Of a stretch of DNA of 33,612 bases, positions 20,516 to 26,752 are shown piece by piece. Within the stretch, counting starts at the first letter, position 1, and each line of letters opens with the position of its first letter. The stretch lies in assembly GCA_013152685.1 (NCBI GenBank), contig JAADFX010000073.1:1-33612 (forward strand), read 5' to 3'. Source of the DNA: Methanobacteriota archaeon (GTDB taxonomy: Archaea; Hydrothermarchaeota; Hydrothermarchaeia; Hydrothermarchaeales; BMS3B). The position numbers were made by a program, and so were the translations under genes. The notes under the pieces are model-generated. The model searched no databases and was not told where the DNA came from. It saw nothing but the letters and a program-made list of their open reading frames with translations.

Positions 20516-21538
20516 TTAATGATATGTGCTGTGATTTAGCCTGACTCTTACTTCTCTGCCTCTTCTGTGCAGGGTGACAAGCCCCTCCCGACTGAGATTT
20601 CTCAGGTGGTAGGATACAGTGGAAGGAGAAAGGTTAAGGGCTGCGGCTATCTCTTTTGCACTTGCTTCACCGACTTTGCTCAGGTAGCTTAGAATCCTGC
20701 CGGCGGTTTCACCTGGGTAAGTTTCATGGGAGCATTCAGAGTTGGGAAAGTAGACCCTAAACCTCCCGGTCTTCTCCGACCGTATCATCCCGAACCTCTC
20801 TAGCACCTGCAGGTGGTAGTGCAGCGTCCCCCTGTTTATGCTCATCTGCCTCGCCAGTCTCCTGAAGTGAATCCCTGGATTTTGACAGATGAAATTCAGT
20901 ATTCTGACCCTTACCTCAGTTTTAACCTCTCTTATCTTGTATATGAGCAGAAGAATAAAAGATATGCCAATAGCCACCAGATAGTGCCCCAGAAGGGCGA
21001 TAACGTAGGTAAAAACGAGAGCGGTGAATACCAGCGAAGCGCGCCTTTTGCCCATTCTGGCGAGGTGGGCATACAGCACGAAAAAGGCTATCCAGGCGGC
21101 ACCGTAGTCTATCAGGAGCCTCATAAGGAGATGGAGGTATTCGCCTTCAGGCGTTACCACACCAGGGCCTGCGGACTCGTACACTATTACGCCTGCCATC
21201 AGCAGAGCGGCAAAGGGGCTCAGCACGTACTCTGTCCAGTTACCGGTAAAGTAGGCGAGGGTGAGGAGCGCCATGCCGTTAATGGCGAGAGGTGTGGAAG
21301 CAAGAGCCACGCGGAACACTGCATCTTTAAATGGCATTCTGATTCCGCTTTTTTCATGAAAGTATGCGTAAATTGCGGCGAGAGCCAGGAAGGTTAAGAA
21401 AGGAGCAAGGAAGGCAGCTGCTGACTGCATGCTAAGCTTTGCAATACCCTCTCTTTCAAAGGCGCGGGCATATAAAATCCAGTTGAGCGCAGAGATGCTT
21501 CCCAGCACGACAATTGGGTAGAGGATTTTTAGCCTCAT
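20516..21538 (-). CDS. multi-TM membrane protein with two C-terminal winged-HTH (ArsR/MarR-like) domains
   Basis: About six hydrophobic segments, then 'RVRILNFICQNPGIHFRRLARQMSINRGTLHYHLQVLERFGMIRSEKTGRFRVYFP' and 'AGRILSYLSKVGEASAKEIAAALNLSPSTVSYHLRNLSREGLVTLHRRGREVRVRL'. Confidence 0.85.
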   Translation of the reverse strand: MRLKILYPIVVLGSISALNWILYARAFEREGIAKLSMQSAAAFLAPFLTFLALAAIYAYFHEKSGIRMPFKDAVFRVALASTPLAINGMALLTLAYFTGNWTEYVLSPFAALLMAGVIVYESAGPGVVTPEGEYLHLLMRLLIDYGAAWIAFFVLYAHLARMGKRRASLVFTALVFTYVIALLGHYLVAIGISFILLLIYKIREVKTEVRVRILNFICQNPGIHFRRLARQMSINRGTLHYHLQVLERFGMIRSEKTGRFRVYFPNSECSHETYPGETAGRILSYLSKVGEASAKEIAAALNLSPSTVSYHLRNLSREGLVTLHRRGREVRVRLNHSTYH

Positions 21539-21570: not shown

Positions 21571-22677
21571 TTATCTCCCTGGCAGTATCGGCCTCTGGAC
21601 AATCTTCGCACCGCGGGGTGCGTCGGGATAGTACTTCACGTCAACCAGCGCTATCCTCGTGTTCTCCTGGAGTTTTTGAAGCTCCCTGAGCCTGCCTTCA
21701 ACCTCAACCCCGTATATTTCGGCAGCACCTTCACTCAGGGCAAGTATCATCATTTCCTGCCTGCGGAGCACCCTGAGTAGCGCGGCGCTTTCATCGCGCT
21801 TGGCCTTATCCAGAGCTTCTTCAGTTCGTGTCATGTCAGCCTTCAGGTCTCCTATTTTTCTGTCCAGCGACTCTGTAACAGAGCCCTGAATGTCGAATCC
21901 GCCTCCGAATCCATAACCTCGTGCCTCGAACCACACCGCCTTTACTTCAACCCTGTAGTCCCTGAAAAGGCTGTCCACATCGCCGGTGCTGGCGAAACTG
22001 TCCAGTGAAACCACCGCATGCATTATCCCTTCTGGCATCTCCTCAGCAAGCTTCCTGAGCACCTTCTTCCTCTGGGATATGTATCTCTCCACCTCATCAC
22101 CGCTTTCCGGACGCAACATCACCATCAAGCGGTCCCCACTGGTTGAGCTGCTGGAGGCGAAGTTCCAGGTGCCGGAAGAGGGAGCTGTGAAGTCTCTTAT
22201 GGGGTAGTAATCCACAGGCCAGTTCGCTCCAGTGCCTGGAAGGTCCCATTTGAGCTCAGCCTCCAGGATTGTCCTGCTGCTCACGACAGAGCTGTCCTGG
22301 TCACTTAAGTCGATGTACATCCAGTACTCCTGCCCTGGCACAGTGGCTTCGGCGTCGTCGCTTCCTACTACGAATTCATCCCAGGTGTTGGCGGAGTTCT
22401 GGGCGTCATCTTCTAAATCGAGGTACTTCTGCGGCAGGTTGCTGCTCCAGTAGCCAGCGTATTTTGCAAAGCCGGTGTTTTCAACCCTGAACTCGTGTTC
22501 ATACGCCTCAGGATACCACTCGTTAAATCCCTGCTCATTCCACACAAAATCCGAATATGCATAGCTCTTGCTTATGTAGTAGTAACCGCTGTCGGGCACA
22601 TAGTCCGGGTGCGATGTGGCAGCTACTGCACCAGCTAGCAAAAGCAGCAATACCGGCACAGTGCAATTCCTTTTCAA
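21571..22677 (-). CDS. secreted hypothetical protein with C-terminal coiled-coil-like region
   Basis: TTG start 22677 (LKRNCTVPVLLLLLAGAVAATSHP signal peptide) with SD GGAGGTGA; preceded by leader cassette A. Helical region 'SVTESLDRKIGDLKADMTRTEEALDKAKRDESAALLRVLRRQ'. Confidence 0.75.
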   Translation of the reverse strand: MKRNCTVPVLLLLLAGAVAATSHPDYVPDSGYYYISKSYAYSDFVWNEQGFNEWYPEAYEHEFRVENTGFAKYAGYWSSNLPQKYLDLEDDAQNSANTWDEFVVGSDDAEATVPGQEYWMYIDLSDQDSSVVSSRTILEAELKWDLPGTGANWPVDYYPIRDFTAPSSGTWNFASSSSTSGDRLMVMLRPESGDEVERYISQRKKVLRKLAEEMPEGIMHAVVSLDSFASTGDVDSLFRDYRVEVKAVWFEARGYGFGGGFDIQGSVTESLDRKIGDLKADMTRTEEALDKAKRDESAALLRVLRRQEMMILALSEGAAEIYGVEVEGRLRELQKLQENTRIALVDVKYYPDAPRGAKIVQRPILPGR

Positions 22678-22685
22678 ACAATTCA

Positions 22686-22793
22686 CCTCCCTTTTGATTC
22701 TTCGAAGGGAGGCCTCCCCACTCATTTTCTTTAAAAACCTCTGCTATAAATAATTTCTGTGACAAACTTCAAAATGTTCGTTTGTGGTGAACA
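22686..22793 (-). promoter_or_regulatory. promoter/leader cassette copy A
   Basis: Dyad TGTTC (22775-22779) N9 GAACA (22789-22793); core TATAAATAATTTCTGTGACAAACTTCAAAATGTTC (22745-22779); palindrome GGGAGGCCTCCC (22707-22718); SD-sequestering arms CCTCCCTT (22686-22693)/AAGGGAGG (22705-22712), + strand notation. Confidence 0.85.
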
Positions 22794-22826
22794 CATACAA
22801 TAAAAAGCAGTTTTTCTGGTTTAGGC

Positions 22827-23069
22827 TTACAATGCCAAAATTTTATCGATCAGTCTGAAGGCAAATTTAAGCAGGAGGAATACAATTGCCGCAGCTACAA
22901 CCATATCCAGCAAAAACAGTAGGTTTCCTAGAGGTGGACTTATCCCGTAGTCCGGATCCAAAAATGGACACTCAAAGCATATAAAGAGAGATAGAAAAGC
23001 CCAGAGTATTGCTCCCACACCGATTAGAAATACCTTGATTATATCCCCGAGTCCTTTTCTCACGCTCAT
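22827..23069 (-). CDS. small two-TM hypothetical membrane protein (80 aa)
   Basis: MSVRKGLGDIIKVFLIGVGAILWAFLSLFICFECPFLDPDYGISPPLGNLLFLLDMVVAAAIVFLLLKFAF; GGAG SD about 8 nt upstream. Confidence 0.65.
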   Translation of the reverse strand: MSVRKGLGDIIKVFLIGVGAILWAFLSLFICFECPFLDPDYGISPPLGNLLFLLDMVVAAAIVFLLLKFAFRLIDKILAL

Positions 23070-23115
23070 GACAGGAACTCCATTTAAATTAACAAAAATA
23101 ATAAAAAAGAACGAA

Positions 23116-23619
23116 CTATCGCGGGGTACCTATCCACTCTATTGTTTTTCTCGGATATCCCGTACCCTTTGATACTACGAACTTCTGGGTGTTGTATACG
23201 TTGAATCCATGGAATCCACCGCAATGTAAATTTGCCAAGTGATCGCCGTGGGCCCCGTGCTTTATGTAGTACCATCCCTTGCCCGTCCATGTGCCCAGAG
23301 AGCCGTAGTCCACATGCACGCTTCCGTCTTTACAGGCTGAAAACTGCCATATCATGGTGTCGGAGTACCAGTCACCGTCTATTAAGGAAAACCCACTGAC
23401 GAAAACTTTTGATTCGCACGACCTCTTATATCCGCTTTCCTGAACCCATACGAGGGGGTCATACGCCTTCTTGTCAAAACATCTCTCTTCGTCCTCCACC
23501 GCGTACTGAATGTCCGGACACCGGCTGGTGTAGGAGCCCCGCCAGGAAGAGTAGTCATGAAAGATACCTGCGGCAGGCATGAAGTAGTACCACCCGTAGT
23601 GGGTACCTTCGCCCTCCAT
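23116..23619 (-). CDS. Trp/Tyr/Cys-rich hypothetical protein lacking a visible signal peptide (possibly 5'-truncated)
   Basis: MEGEGTHYGWYYFMPAAGIFHDYSSWRGSYTSRCPDIQ...; extracytoplasmic-like composition, but an in-frame TGA lies 3 codons upstream of the ATG. Confidence 0.55.
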   Translation of the reverse strand: MEGEGTHYGWYYFMPAAGIFHDYSSWRGSYTSRCPDIQYAVEDEERCFDKKAYDPLVWVQESGYKRSCESKVFVSGFSLIDGDWYSDTMIWQFSACKDGSVHVDYGSLGTWTGKGWYYIKHGAHGDHLANLHCGGFHGFNVYNTQKFVVSKGTGYPRKTIEWIGTPR

Positions 23620-23626
23620 CTGTTCT

Positions 23627-23797
23627 TCATAGTATTACTCCTCCATATCTTATGGTGTTGTGGAGGTCTTCTGCCTTCTCCTTCTCCCCGGCATTCAGCA
23701 GCTCCAGCACCAGCTGTAGCCCAGAAATCTGAGCCTCAAGGATTTCTGCCCTTGAGGCCTTTCTCTTTTCCGGCTTCTTTTGCTTAGCTCCAGCCAT
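23627..23797 (-). CDS. 56-aa charged small protein downstream of leader cassette B
   Basis: MAGAKQKKPEKRKASRAEILEAQISGLQLVLELLNAGEKEKAEDLHNTIRYGGVIL; SD GGAGGTGA + 5 nt + ATG, same spacing as copies A and C. Track ORF (start 23839) reads through the leader. Confidence 0.65.
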   Translation of the reverse strand: MAGAKQKKPEKRKASRAEILEAQISGLQLVLELLNAGEKEKAEDLHNTIRYGGVIL

Positions 23798-23805
23798 CCA
23801 CTTCA

Positions 23806-23910
23806 CCTCCTCTTTTTCTTCGAGGAGGCGCCTCCCCAAGCTATTAAAATGCTATTTCTGCCATAAATAATTTCTGTGACAAACTTCAAAATGTTCACTG
23901 GTGGTGAACA
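23806..23910 (-). promoter_or_regulatory. promoter/leader cassette copy B
   Basis: Dyad TGTTC (23892-23896) N9 GAACA (23906-23910); core CATAAATAATTTCTGTGACAAACTTCAAAATGTTC (23862-23896); palindrome GGAGGCGCCTCC (23824-23835); arms CCTCCTC (23806-23812)/GAGGAGG (23822-23828). Confidence 0.85.
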
Positions 23911-23929
23911 TATAATTCCTTAAAGTTTT

Positions 23930-24181
23930 TTACTCCTCTTCTAAACCCTCCCTAAATTTTTCACTCAGAAGTATAAGAACCCCGTAGGAGAATATCAAAA
24001 CTCCTGCGATGCTCAGGCTTGTGCTGCCATCTGCAAACTGAGGAACAAAGGTTAGAATTGTGCCAATAACAAGAAGATCCAGCACCCTTGCCCTCTTATC
24101 CTTTTTTATCTGAGATGCACTTCTAATCCAGAGGATAATTCCTATAACCGCAATGAGGGCAAACAGCGCCTTTGTTAACAC
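23930..24181 (-). CDS. small multi-TM hypothetical membrane protein (83 aa)
   Basis: GTG start; (M)LTKALFALIAVIGIILWIRSASQIKKDKRARVLDLLVIGTILTFVPQFADGSTSLSIAGVLIFSYGVLILL; GGAGAT SD upstream. Confidence 0.65.
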   Translation of the reverse strand: MLTKALFALIAVIGIILWIRSASQIKKDKRARVLDLLVIGTILTFVPQFADGSTSLSIAGVLIFSYGVLILLSEKFREGLEEE

Positions 24182-24200
24182 CGGACTATCTCCAGAAAGA

Positions 24201-24311
24201 TTAAGCTTGCCTATGTTTGAATTCTTTCACAGAAATATACATCAGGGTCACCGATCCGGCTGCAATCACCAACCCGGCTGCATAGCCCGCGCCTCCATCC
24301 CCGATGCTCAT
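24201..24311 (-). CDS. possible 36-aa single-TM peptide
   Basis: MSIGDGGAGYAAGLVIAAGSVTLMYISVKEFKHRQA read directly from the reverse strand; not in the ORF track; no strong SD. Confidence 0.3.
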   Translation of the reverse strand: MSIGDGGAGYAAGLVIAAGSVTLMYISVKEFKHRQA

Positions 24312-24376
24312 ATTTTTCCCGGTTATTACCGCATAGAGTCATGAGTTAAATTACCTCTTACAATCCCACTCAATTA

Positions 24377-24907
24377 TCACTCTACAATCACTTTCACTTT
24401 AGCGGATTCCACCCTGCCCACCCAGTAGGGCCTGGTTATCCTCTCATACTCCGGTTTTCCTGTAAAATAAACTGCCTTCAAGACATACTCGCCTTTCTTT
24501 AGAGTCCAGCAGTTTTTCCAGGCATCTGCCTTAAGAGAGAATCTAAGAGATTCCCCGGGCTTAAGTTCTATCAAGTTTTTATTTGTCATCTGCACTCTTT
24601 GAATAACAGGACAGCGATGTTTTGAAACTGGCGTGCCATTCGGATAGTAGAAGGCTATGTCATAGTCCATAAGCCACTCTGGCTTCCAGACATTAATAGA
24701 GTTTTTCCCGTTGTTCCTCAATATAAACTCAATATCAAAGGCTTCTCCTTCCTTGATTATATTCTCCTCCGGCACCACAGTAAGAGTGAGATTTCCATAT
24801 TGAGGTTTTGCCAGAAATTTATATGGTATCGGAGTGTTGAATAACCACTGAGCAGCTACTAACAGTATAAGAACTGTTGAAATTAAAATAAGATAAACTT
24901 GTCTCAT
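24377..24907 (-). CDS. membrane-anchored extracytoplasmic hypothetical protein (Ig/BsuPI-like beta domain)
   Basis: N-terminal TM 'VYLILISTVLILLVAAQWLF' then 'LTVVPEENIIKEGEAFDIEFILRNNGKNSINVW..LIELKPGESLRFSLKADAW..KKGEYVLKAVYF'. Confidence 0.65.
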   Translation of the reverse strand: MRQVYLILISTVLILLVAAQWLFNTPIPYKFLAKPQYGNLTLTVVPEENIIKEGEAFDIEFILRNNGKNSINVWKPEWLMDYDIAFYYPNGTPVSKHRCPVIQRVQMTNKNLIELKPGESLRFSLKADAWKNCWTLKKGEYVLKAVYFTGKPEYERITRPYWVGRVESAKVKVIVE

Positions 24908-24933
24908 TATTTAACCGCTCCATGCATGACTAC

Positions 24934-24962
24934 TAAAAATAAATAAAAAACAAAAAATAATT
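24934..24962 (-). terminator. T-rich terminator region downstream of the metalloprotease gene
   Basis: Minus strand AAATTATTTTTTGTTTTTTATTTATTTTT immediately after the stop at 24968. Confidence 0.5.
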
Positions 24963-24967
24963 TAAGA

Positions 24968-26254
24968 TTATCTGTACCCTGCGACGGTGGTTTTTGTCTC
25001 GGAAATTCTCCTGATGTTGTCGTGAGTGGAGTCTCCGTGATTGTTTCTGTCTGAGAACTCAAGCTGCATTCCACCGATCCAGCCTGTGCCCATGAAGGGT
25101 GTCCATAGTGCTGTGTATCTGTCCCATATGATGTACTTCCACTGGTATGCCCTTGCATAATTTGGGTTTGTGTTGTCCTGATGTCCTGCATCAAAGTTGT
25201 GCCCTGTTTCATGGGCGGTTAGAATACACCTATCCTTAAAACTTGCAGTGTAGCTGGTTCCGGGTTCTGCTACCATCTGGGCAGTTGCAAATCCACACCA
25301 TGCGCTCCCACCACAGTACCCATAGGAACATCCGCCAGCTTGTCCGTCGAAGTTTTTGCCCGAGAAGAGAAAAGCTAAATCGCTTTTAGTGCTATCTCTG
25401 TCGCTGCTAGCTCTGCCAAAGAAGCTTCCAAGTACGCTTCCGCAATCCCCATTGGGTATGTTGGAATAATATCTATAACTCCTAATGGAGAGCTGCACTC
25501 CTGCAGGAGCATATGCATCGTTTATGCTGGCTATCATGCTGGCGATCTCTGCTGTTGGATTAGAAAACTCATTTTTAAACTCCGTGTCATATCCTGCTAG
25601 CAAATCTACGGTAGTTGTTGATAAAGTCCCTGAAAGTGTATTTTCTACTGTCGAGTCCACTGTTTTTAGGTTAATGTGGCTTATCACATCACCATCCAGC
25701 GGCATAGGGGTGGCGTTTGTCTTGTCTCTGAGCATTTCTGAGCTATAGATAATGTGAACTATCCTCCCATTGTACTTCTTGTTTGTCTGGTCTATCACAT
25801 AATATTTGTCTCCAAGTTCTATCACACCGATGACTACATCACTGCTCACCGTGATGATAACTCTGCTGTTTTTAATTCCTCTGACTTTGCCTTTGTAGGT
25901 GTACAGAGGCGGCGCTTCCTCTATGAATTTACCGCTCTCGTTTTCAGTGATTATCACGGCATTCGCTGACTGAACTTCCACAGGCATAAGCTCCATCTCA
26001 AATTTTCTTCCAAACAGTTCAAGACTCACAACTCCTGAATCCGCTGCTTTCTTAAAAGCCATAGGGTCTATAATAACCGTTTTGAATTCTTTTAGGAAAT
26101 TGCTGCCCAGAATTTCTGATTTGTTATATGGTATCTCCTTGAAGAAACTGTAACTCTGGTTTGTGCTACTTGCTAAGCCAGCAAACACACTCCCAGCCAC
26201 CAGCGCCACAACAACCAGCGCCGGAATTCCTATACTAAACCAACTTCCTTTCAA
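24968..26254 (-). CDS. secreted ADAM/reprolysin-like (M12-type) metzincin protease with propeptide-like N-terminal region
   Basis: Signal peptide 'IPALVVVALVAGSVFAG'; zinc motif 'TAHETGHNFDAGH' (HExxHxxGxxH); downstream 'PFMGTG' Met-turn candidate; prodomain-like 'YTYKGKVRGIKNSRVIITVSSDVVIGVIELGDKYYVID'. TTG start 26254 at conserved spacing from the SD; track start 26263 is inside the SD. Confidence 0.88.
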   Translation of the reverse strand: MKGSWFSIGIPALVVVALVAGSVFAGLASSTNQSYSFFKEIPYNKSEILGSNFLKEFKTVIIDPMAFKKAADSGVVSLELFGRKFEMELMPVEVQSANAVIITENESGKFIEEAPPLYTYKGKVRGIKNSRVIITVSSDVVIGVIELGDKYYVIDQTNKKYNGRIVHIIYSSEMLRDKTNATPMPLDGDVISHINLKTVDSTVENTLSGTLSTTTVDLLAGYDTEFKNEFSNPTAEIASMIASINDAYAPAGVQLSIRSYRYYSNIPNGDCGSVLGSFFGRASSDRDSTKSDLAFLFSGKNFDGQAGGCSYGYCGGSAWCGFATAQMVAEPGTSYTASFKDRCILTAHETGHNFDAGHQDNTNPNYARAYQWKYIIWDRYTALWTPFMGTGWIGGMQLEFSDRNNHGDSTHDNIRRISETKTTVAGYR

Positions 26255-26262
26255 TTTCTTCA

Positions 26263-26371
26263 CCTCCTCTTTTTGCTTTTTTGAGGAGGCGCCCCCTCTT
26301 TTTGTTGTTTAGAAGCTTTTCCCATAAATAATTTCTGTGACAAAATTCAAAATGTTCGTCATAGTTGAACA
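26263..26371 (-). promoter_or_regulatory. promoter/leader cassette copy C
   Basis: Dyad TGTTC (26353-26357) N9 GAACA (26367-26371); core CATAAATAATTTCTGTGACAAAATTCAAAATGTTC (26323-26357); arms CCTCCTC (26263-26269)/GAGGAGG (26283-26289); upper stem GAGGAGGC/GCCCCCTC (26283-26298), pairing in RNA with one G-U. Confidence 0.85.
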
Positions 26372-26752
26372 AGTTTTTCCTGTAAATCCACTAAAGGTAT
26401 AAACAAATGAATCAATATCGTTAAATTAGCAATCTGAATGTGCCTGTTGATCTAATCTTTATAGAGATTCTATCCCATGAGGCATGGATAGTCAGATAAA
26501 TAATAGTCTCTATTGGTTGTATAAATTTATCTGTCGCGGATGTGAGCTGCGGAAGAAAAGGCATTCTACACGCAGGCTGGCTTAATATTGTGGCACATGC
26601 GCGGATCAAAGCACGGAATGTTCTGCTTGTACCGTTCTGGACGGTTTCAGCAGGTGTTCGCTCTCGCGGAGGCGTTTGAACTTTCACCTGCTTCACGGTT
26701 CTGCCGGCAAACTTAATCTCGGCGCCCGGGAAACTTGGGGTGAGGTGGTGCA

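Follow-up and report, generated by a model that had tools for sequence, protein, structure and literature searches.

Do some archaeal genes hide their Shine-Dalgarno (SD) sequence in an RNA hairpin, and does a competing hairpin release it? The question is raised by the window, the 33,612-nt stretch of DNA analysed here, in which three minus-strand genes share a leader made of a G-rich arm (arm1), a C-rich arm (arm2), an A-rich loop and a long SD (arm3). A first-pass annotation had described mutually exclusive hairpins at these sites, and the sequence agrees both with where it placed the three copies and with its observation that the C-rich arm of each can pair either with the SD or with the G-rich arm just upstream. 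The elements are as follows.

26291-26298, minus strand: copy C arm1, GAGGGGGC, the competing arm, predicted to form the 5' end of the RNA
26283-26290, minus strand: copy C arm2, GCCTCCTC (anti-SD-like GCCUCCUC), in which CGCCUCCUC pairs with GAGGAGGUG
26270-26282, minus strand: copy C A-rich loop, 13 nt, neither sequence nor length conserved
26263-26269, minus strand: copy C SD (arm3), GAGGAGG, then UGA; the SD stem reaches into GGUG
23831-23837, minus strand: copy B arm1, GGGGAGG
23822-23828, minus strand: copy B arm2, CCUCCUC
23806-23812, minus strand: copy B SD (arm3); loop of 9 nt
22713-22719, minus strand: copy A arm1, GGGGAGG
22705-22712, minus strand: copy A arm2, CCTCCCTT / CCUCCCUU (compensated)
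22686-22693, minus strand: copy A SD (arm3), AAGGGAGG (compensated); loop of 11 nt
26254, 23797 and 22677, minus strand: start codons of copies C (TTG), B (ATG) and A (TTG)

The two stems themselves had to be redrawn. The SD stem is longer than annotated, since CGCCUCCUC pairs with GAGGAGGUG over 9 bp, including one G-U, in most copies. The upstream stem, drawn as 8 bp, would be loopless because its arms abut; the hairpin that can fold has 6 bp and a GCGC tetraloop, or 5 bp and GGCC in copy A, and the G-U pair that had been noted for copy C alone is also found in copy B. In all intact copies, the start codon lies 5-6 nt downstream of GAGGTGA.

Searches by DNA similarity, pattern and covariance model yielded 18 leaders, the 3 in the window and 15 further copies: four in G004, two in G003 and one in G002 (congeners, all Hydrothermarchaeota MAGs), seven in a 'Geoglobus' MAG, and a single one in G156, a genome that belongs to a different phylum. 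All three copies detectable by DNA similarity in the source MAG (1.8 Mb) are on the window's contig 73, and among 23 genomes of the class the leader is confined to the window's genus. The G156 copy has both arms in full, stands behind a promoter of its own and precedes a homologous signal peptide; it lies on a 6.1-kb contig, given which mis-binning could account for its presence there. Both G003 leaders have a damaged arm2, one through a mismatch and the other through a deletion. Several candidates were set aside: 27 matches to the arm2-SD pattern in viral contigs, none of which on inspection had the family's arm1/SD leader layout, and covariance-model matches in G016 (38.7 bits) and G063 that appear to lie within coding sequence and were taken as chance. 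Locus L119 (3312-4496, G156:C37) encodes a trypsin-like exported protein, with the leader present and a different promoter. At L113 (G041:C390), the leader is joined nearly directly to the C-terminal end of the metzincin gene, a junction that probably arose by recombination between paralogues.

The SD-hiding stem is the conserved element of the leader. When 17 leaders from five MAGs were registered by hand, 117 of the 119 cells of its core were paired. The two compensatory pairs that had been reported for copy A (U-A to C-G and C-G to U-A) are correct, and occupy stem positions 6 and 7, where both partners differ in copy A and in G003:C60; these probably represent one event that G003:C60 inherited, so that compensatory support consists of two double-changed pairs from one event and has limited power. 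In the stem extension of L018:63-106, G-U has become A-U and C-G has become U-G, and both still pair. The homologous leaders, to which the annotation had looked for conserved pairing, thus keep SD occlusion across 17 copies through a two-pair compensatory event and one-sided compatible changes. In alignment A3, a covariance-model alignment fitted to the SD-stem model, the covariation score was 0.117 compared with 0.077 for shuffled alignments (one shuffle in 500 reached it), and pairing fell from 99% to 49-80% in slid registers; these values support the stem rather than prove it, because A3 leans to structure and its sequences are related, and its gap placement conceals the G003:C60 mismatch that the hand-registered count shows. 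The inverted repeat CCTCCTC-N3..25-GAGGAGG occurs three times in the window, with 0.02 expected, and two of the three belong to these leaders. On its own it is no more frequent across the genome than the control (18 sites versus 20), but when joined to an SD with GGTGA in the 23 class genomes it returns seven leaders and one other site, with two in the control.

Since all copies are closely related paralogues, the conserved pairing could come from sequence conservation alone, and the leader might have no regulatory role beyond damping, either as a static attenuator or as something carried along when paralogues were recently copied. The way that leader, promoter and signal peptide move together in tandem paralogues fits this explanation, as does the occurrence of damaged-arm leaders in G003. 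However, the arms have outlived divergence of the spacer and loop (mean identity 83% for the arms, 67% for the loop and 62% for the spacer, with shuffled spacers at 51%), and they are kept behind different promoters in G002 and G156, so that we regard mere damping as a possible but doubtful account.

Folding both alternative structures, as had been proposed, gave -14 to -19 kcal/mol for the SD-hiding form and -7 to -12 kcal/mol for the SD-open form of intact leaders at 37 C, where the upstream hairpin is 3-10 kcal/mol weaker than the SD-hiding fold. The SD-hiding stem is the dominant ViennaRNA fold in every intact leader, and the leader is in this respect predicted to work like an SD-sequestering leader. 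Minimum free energy z-scores were -3.5 for copy B and -3.2 for copy C, and only -1.2 for copy A. Predicted SD opening in intact leaders was below 0.3% at 37 C, 0.1-6% at 70 C (at most about 2% in most of them) and about 2-40% at 90 C, while the damaged G003 leaders were far leakier, at 10-39% at 70 C.

The modelled opening curve climbs between 70 and 95 C, consistent with the idea that the leader is an RNA thermosensor whose hairpin melts near or above the growth temperature, so that heating would turn on the exported enzymes. The host bears signs of thermophily (a reverse gyrase, a 16S G+C of 63% in a congener and an IVYWREL fraction of 0.47, used qualitatively only since the 109 C derived from it is implausible), and base pairs alone are conserved, with no aptamer. 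Against this, melting is common to any hairpin, the stems are nearly perfect and GC-rich and lack the mismatches that destabilise known thermometers, and the controlled genes are not heat-shock genes. Heat sensing is a tentative proposal, and temperature, although the most economical guess for the trigger, is an equally tentative one.

Whether arm1 makes this a two-state switch is a separate matter. Across 17 leaders, arm1 is complementary to arm2 in 99 of 102 cells, G-U included. It has two main variable columns, both opposite U (one with 10 A-U, 5 G-U and 2 G-C, the other with 8 A-U and 9 G-U), and the remaining columns are nearly fixed. As A and G both pair with U, this variation is more easily reconciled with an RNA helix than with a DNA palindrome, although the signal is modest because purine transitions are common. 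The competing idea is that arm1 and arm2 form a DNA palindrome at the transcription start, serving as an operator or initiation element, with their RNA folding incidental. The arms are indeed almost perfectly palindromic about GGCGCC, and their distance from the TATA box is constant, but in 15 of 17 copies one or more positions of the 6-bp arms are not Watson-Crick paired, 12 of these 15 depart by G:T alone, which pairs in RNA and not in DNA, and the arm2-arm3 compensation would be left unexplained; we therefore consider a DNA element quite unlikely.

At 70 C, the predicted opening of the SD fell by a median of 44-fold when arm1 was removed. In four of six leaders, however, the real arm1 did no better than a shuffled G-rich 5' segment, and its advantage was clear in only two of six, suggesting that the effect may come from G-richness and not from a tuned antisequestor. 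Arm1 would on these models aid opening mainly by its G-richness, and a tuned switch is a conjecture; a 6-bp hairpin is also unlikely to act as a kinetic trap at such temperatures. Of the mutually exclusive hairpins first proposed as a switch, the alternative pairings do exist, but the SD-hiding fold is favoured over the other, and in most leaders tested the arm1 effect is matched by shuffles.

The position of arm1 in the transcript was evaluated from the promoter, whose elements are as follows.

26324-26331, minus strand: putative TATA box of copy C, TTATTTAT, assigned by consensus
23863-23870 and 22746-22753, minus strand: TATA equivalents of copies B and A
26354-26370, minus strand: GTTC-N9-GAAC of copy C, conserved, upstream of the TATA box
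23893-23909 and 22776-22792, minus strand: GTTC-N9-GAAC equivalents of copies B and A

In the 11 copies measured, the TATA-like box is 23-26 nt from arm1, despite differing spacer sequences. The RNA start was placed by the usual archaeal TATA-to-start spacing, and is predicted to fall at or a few bases before arm1, which would make arm1 the extreme 5' end of the RNA. GTTC-N9-GAAC has three matches where 0.12 are expected, and is followed in all three copies by ATTTTGAA..TTTGTCACAGAAATTATTTAT, which reaches through the TATA box; it is probably the operator at which one transcription factor acts on all three copies. A candidate for that regulator is encoded on the minus strand at 20516-21538, directly downstream of copy A; this protein has hydrophobic segments near its N-terminus and two winged-helix domains at its C-terminus. 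In G021, of the same class, the promoter element occurs without hairpin arms at L015 (1501-1536) and L017 (1501-1536), one of the two preceding an ORF with a signal-peptide-like start; the promoter motif is found more widely than the leader.

The leaders precede genes for otherwise different, mostly exported proteins. Those in the window are as follows.

24968-26254, minus strand: copy C gene, a secreted metzincin-type metalloprotease (HETGHNFDAGH; Pfam Reprolysin_5, 5e-14)
23630-23797, minus strand: copy B gene, a 56-aa ORF without signal peptide, followed by an ORF at 23116-23619
21571-22677, minus strand: copy A gene, a secreted 368-aa protein, function unassigned

Judged by eye, 15 of 17 downstream ORFs have a signal-peptide-like N-terminus, mostly with the pattern M(K/R)(S/G)xW...PAL...GSVFA, while the mature parts differ and include a metzincin protease, a trypsin-like protease (by motif) and unknowns. 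The signal peptide is missing in copy B and G003:C104. An out-of-frame MKNRW signal-peptide-like start precedes the second ORF of copy B (23116-23660, minus strand), which appears to be a remnant or a rearranged exported gene. All three leaders lie in an island (21571-26600) with a G+C of 0.456, compared with 0.615 in the surroundings, and this AT-rich island was likely acquired horizontally. Other leader loci are likewise AT-rich (G+C 0.40-0.48), and together with the G156 copy they suggest horizontal spread of a cassette of leader and signal peptide; a leader that needs only the conserved anti-SD would travel well.

From conserved pairing, folding energies, the positions of TATA box and start codon, and the spread with signal-peptide genes, we favour, with moderate confidence, a compact translational hairpin leader of about 42 nt that is OFF by default. 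Transcription would start at or just before arm1. Arm2 (CGCCUCCUC) would imitate the 16S anti-SD tail and pair with the SD along its whole length (GAGGAGGUG), forming a hairpin of 7-9 bp that keeps translation off. Opening of the hairpin would free an unusually long SD, with about 9 nt complementary to 16S and 5-6 nt from the start codon; this match was scored against the 16S tail GGAUCACCUCCU of congener G001, because a search of the window's own MAG found no 16S. Arm1 would take arm2 into a weaker 5-6 bp hairpin and so lower the cost of opening. Given a loop that is free to vary and the lack of a conserved ligand pocket, the hairpin would most likely be opened by base-pair energetics, through temperature, ribosome loading or an unwinding protein; until then, translation of these proteins, most of them exported, is probably restrained. 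The single compensatory event, the damaged G003 arms, the copy A z-score and the arm1 shuffles count against the default-OFF leader, and our confidence in it overlaps with that in the trigger options, which are ways in which it could work.

One such way is a trans-acting protein or small RNA that recognises the leader and opens or stabilises it, for which the archaeal leaders bound by L7Ae and occluding the SD are a precedent (PMC5539422, PMC6298567). The A-rich composition of the loop is maintained, but loops range from 9 to 15 nt without conserved sequence, no kink-turn was seen by eye, and the specific partner would be needed in the other phylum (G156) too, so that we think a dedicated factor rather unlikely. 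A ligand riboswitch is very improbable: the shared-arm alternative stems look like expression platforms, but the leader has only ~42 nt and no conserved unpaired core, and an Rfam search of the leader region found no family match (two matches, E 2.7 and 4.2, were far under gathering scores). What survives of the original suggestion of a riboswitch, thermosensor or leader switch is conserved SD occlusion, with a thermosensor or an OFF-hairpin opened by protein or ribosome as possible forms; the riboswitch is disfavoured and two-hairpin switching is conjectural.

Among known systems, the fluoride (crcB) riboswitch of Thermococcus kodakarensis was, as of 2021, the only experimentally determined natural archaeal riboswitch (PMC8241225). 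It and the present leader are both archaeal and thought to act on translation, whereas this leader is shorter and lacks an aptamer and an Rfam match. Regulated SD occlusion is rarely documented in archaea, and L7Ae leaders are a protein-dependent case. The present 5' leader resembles them in being archaeal and in burying the SD within a stem-loop, but L7Ae leaders take on structure only once the protein has bound a kink-turn (PMC5539422, PMC6298567), while this leader is predicted to be stable alone, its intact stems are continuous standard pairs, and no kink-turn with tandem G-A pairs was seen by eye at the SD stem. Having neither aptamer nor, by eye, kink-turn, it is classed as neither riboswitch nor L7Ae leader. 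The 18 natural variants, damaged ones included, on otherwise different exported proteins form a test set for translation control in thermophilic archaea. That they constitute a naturally occurring RNA thermometer of archaea, operating at around 80-95 C, in a self-contained and horizontally mobile cassette of leader and signal peptide, is an unlikely reading; if true, exported enzymes would go untranslated until heat opened the SD hairpin, with the competing arm at the 5' end tuning the response. Bacterial RNA thermometers of the fourU and ROSE types share with this leader a short 5' UTR hairpin that hides the SD and needs no ligand pocket. In contrast to them, the leader is archaeal, precedes genes for exported proteins, and has a long, mostly perfect, GC-rich stem for which substantial opening is predicted near 90 C or above.
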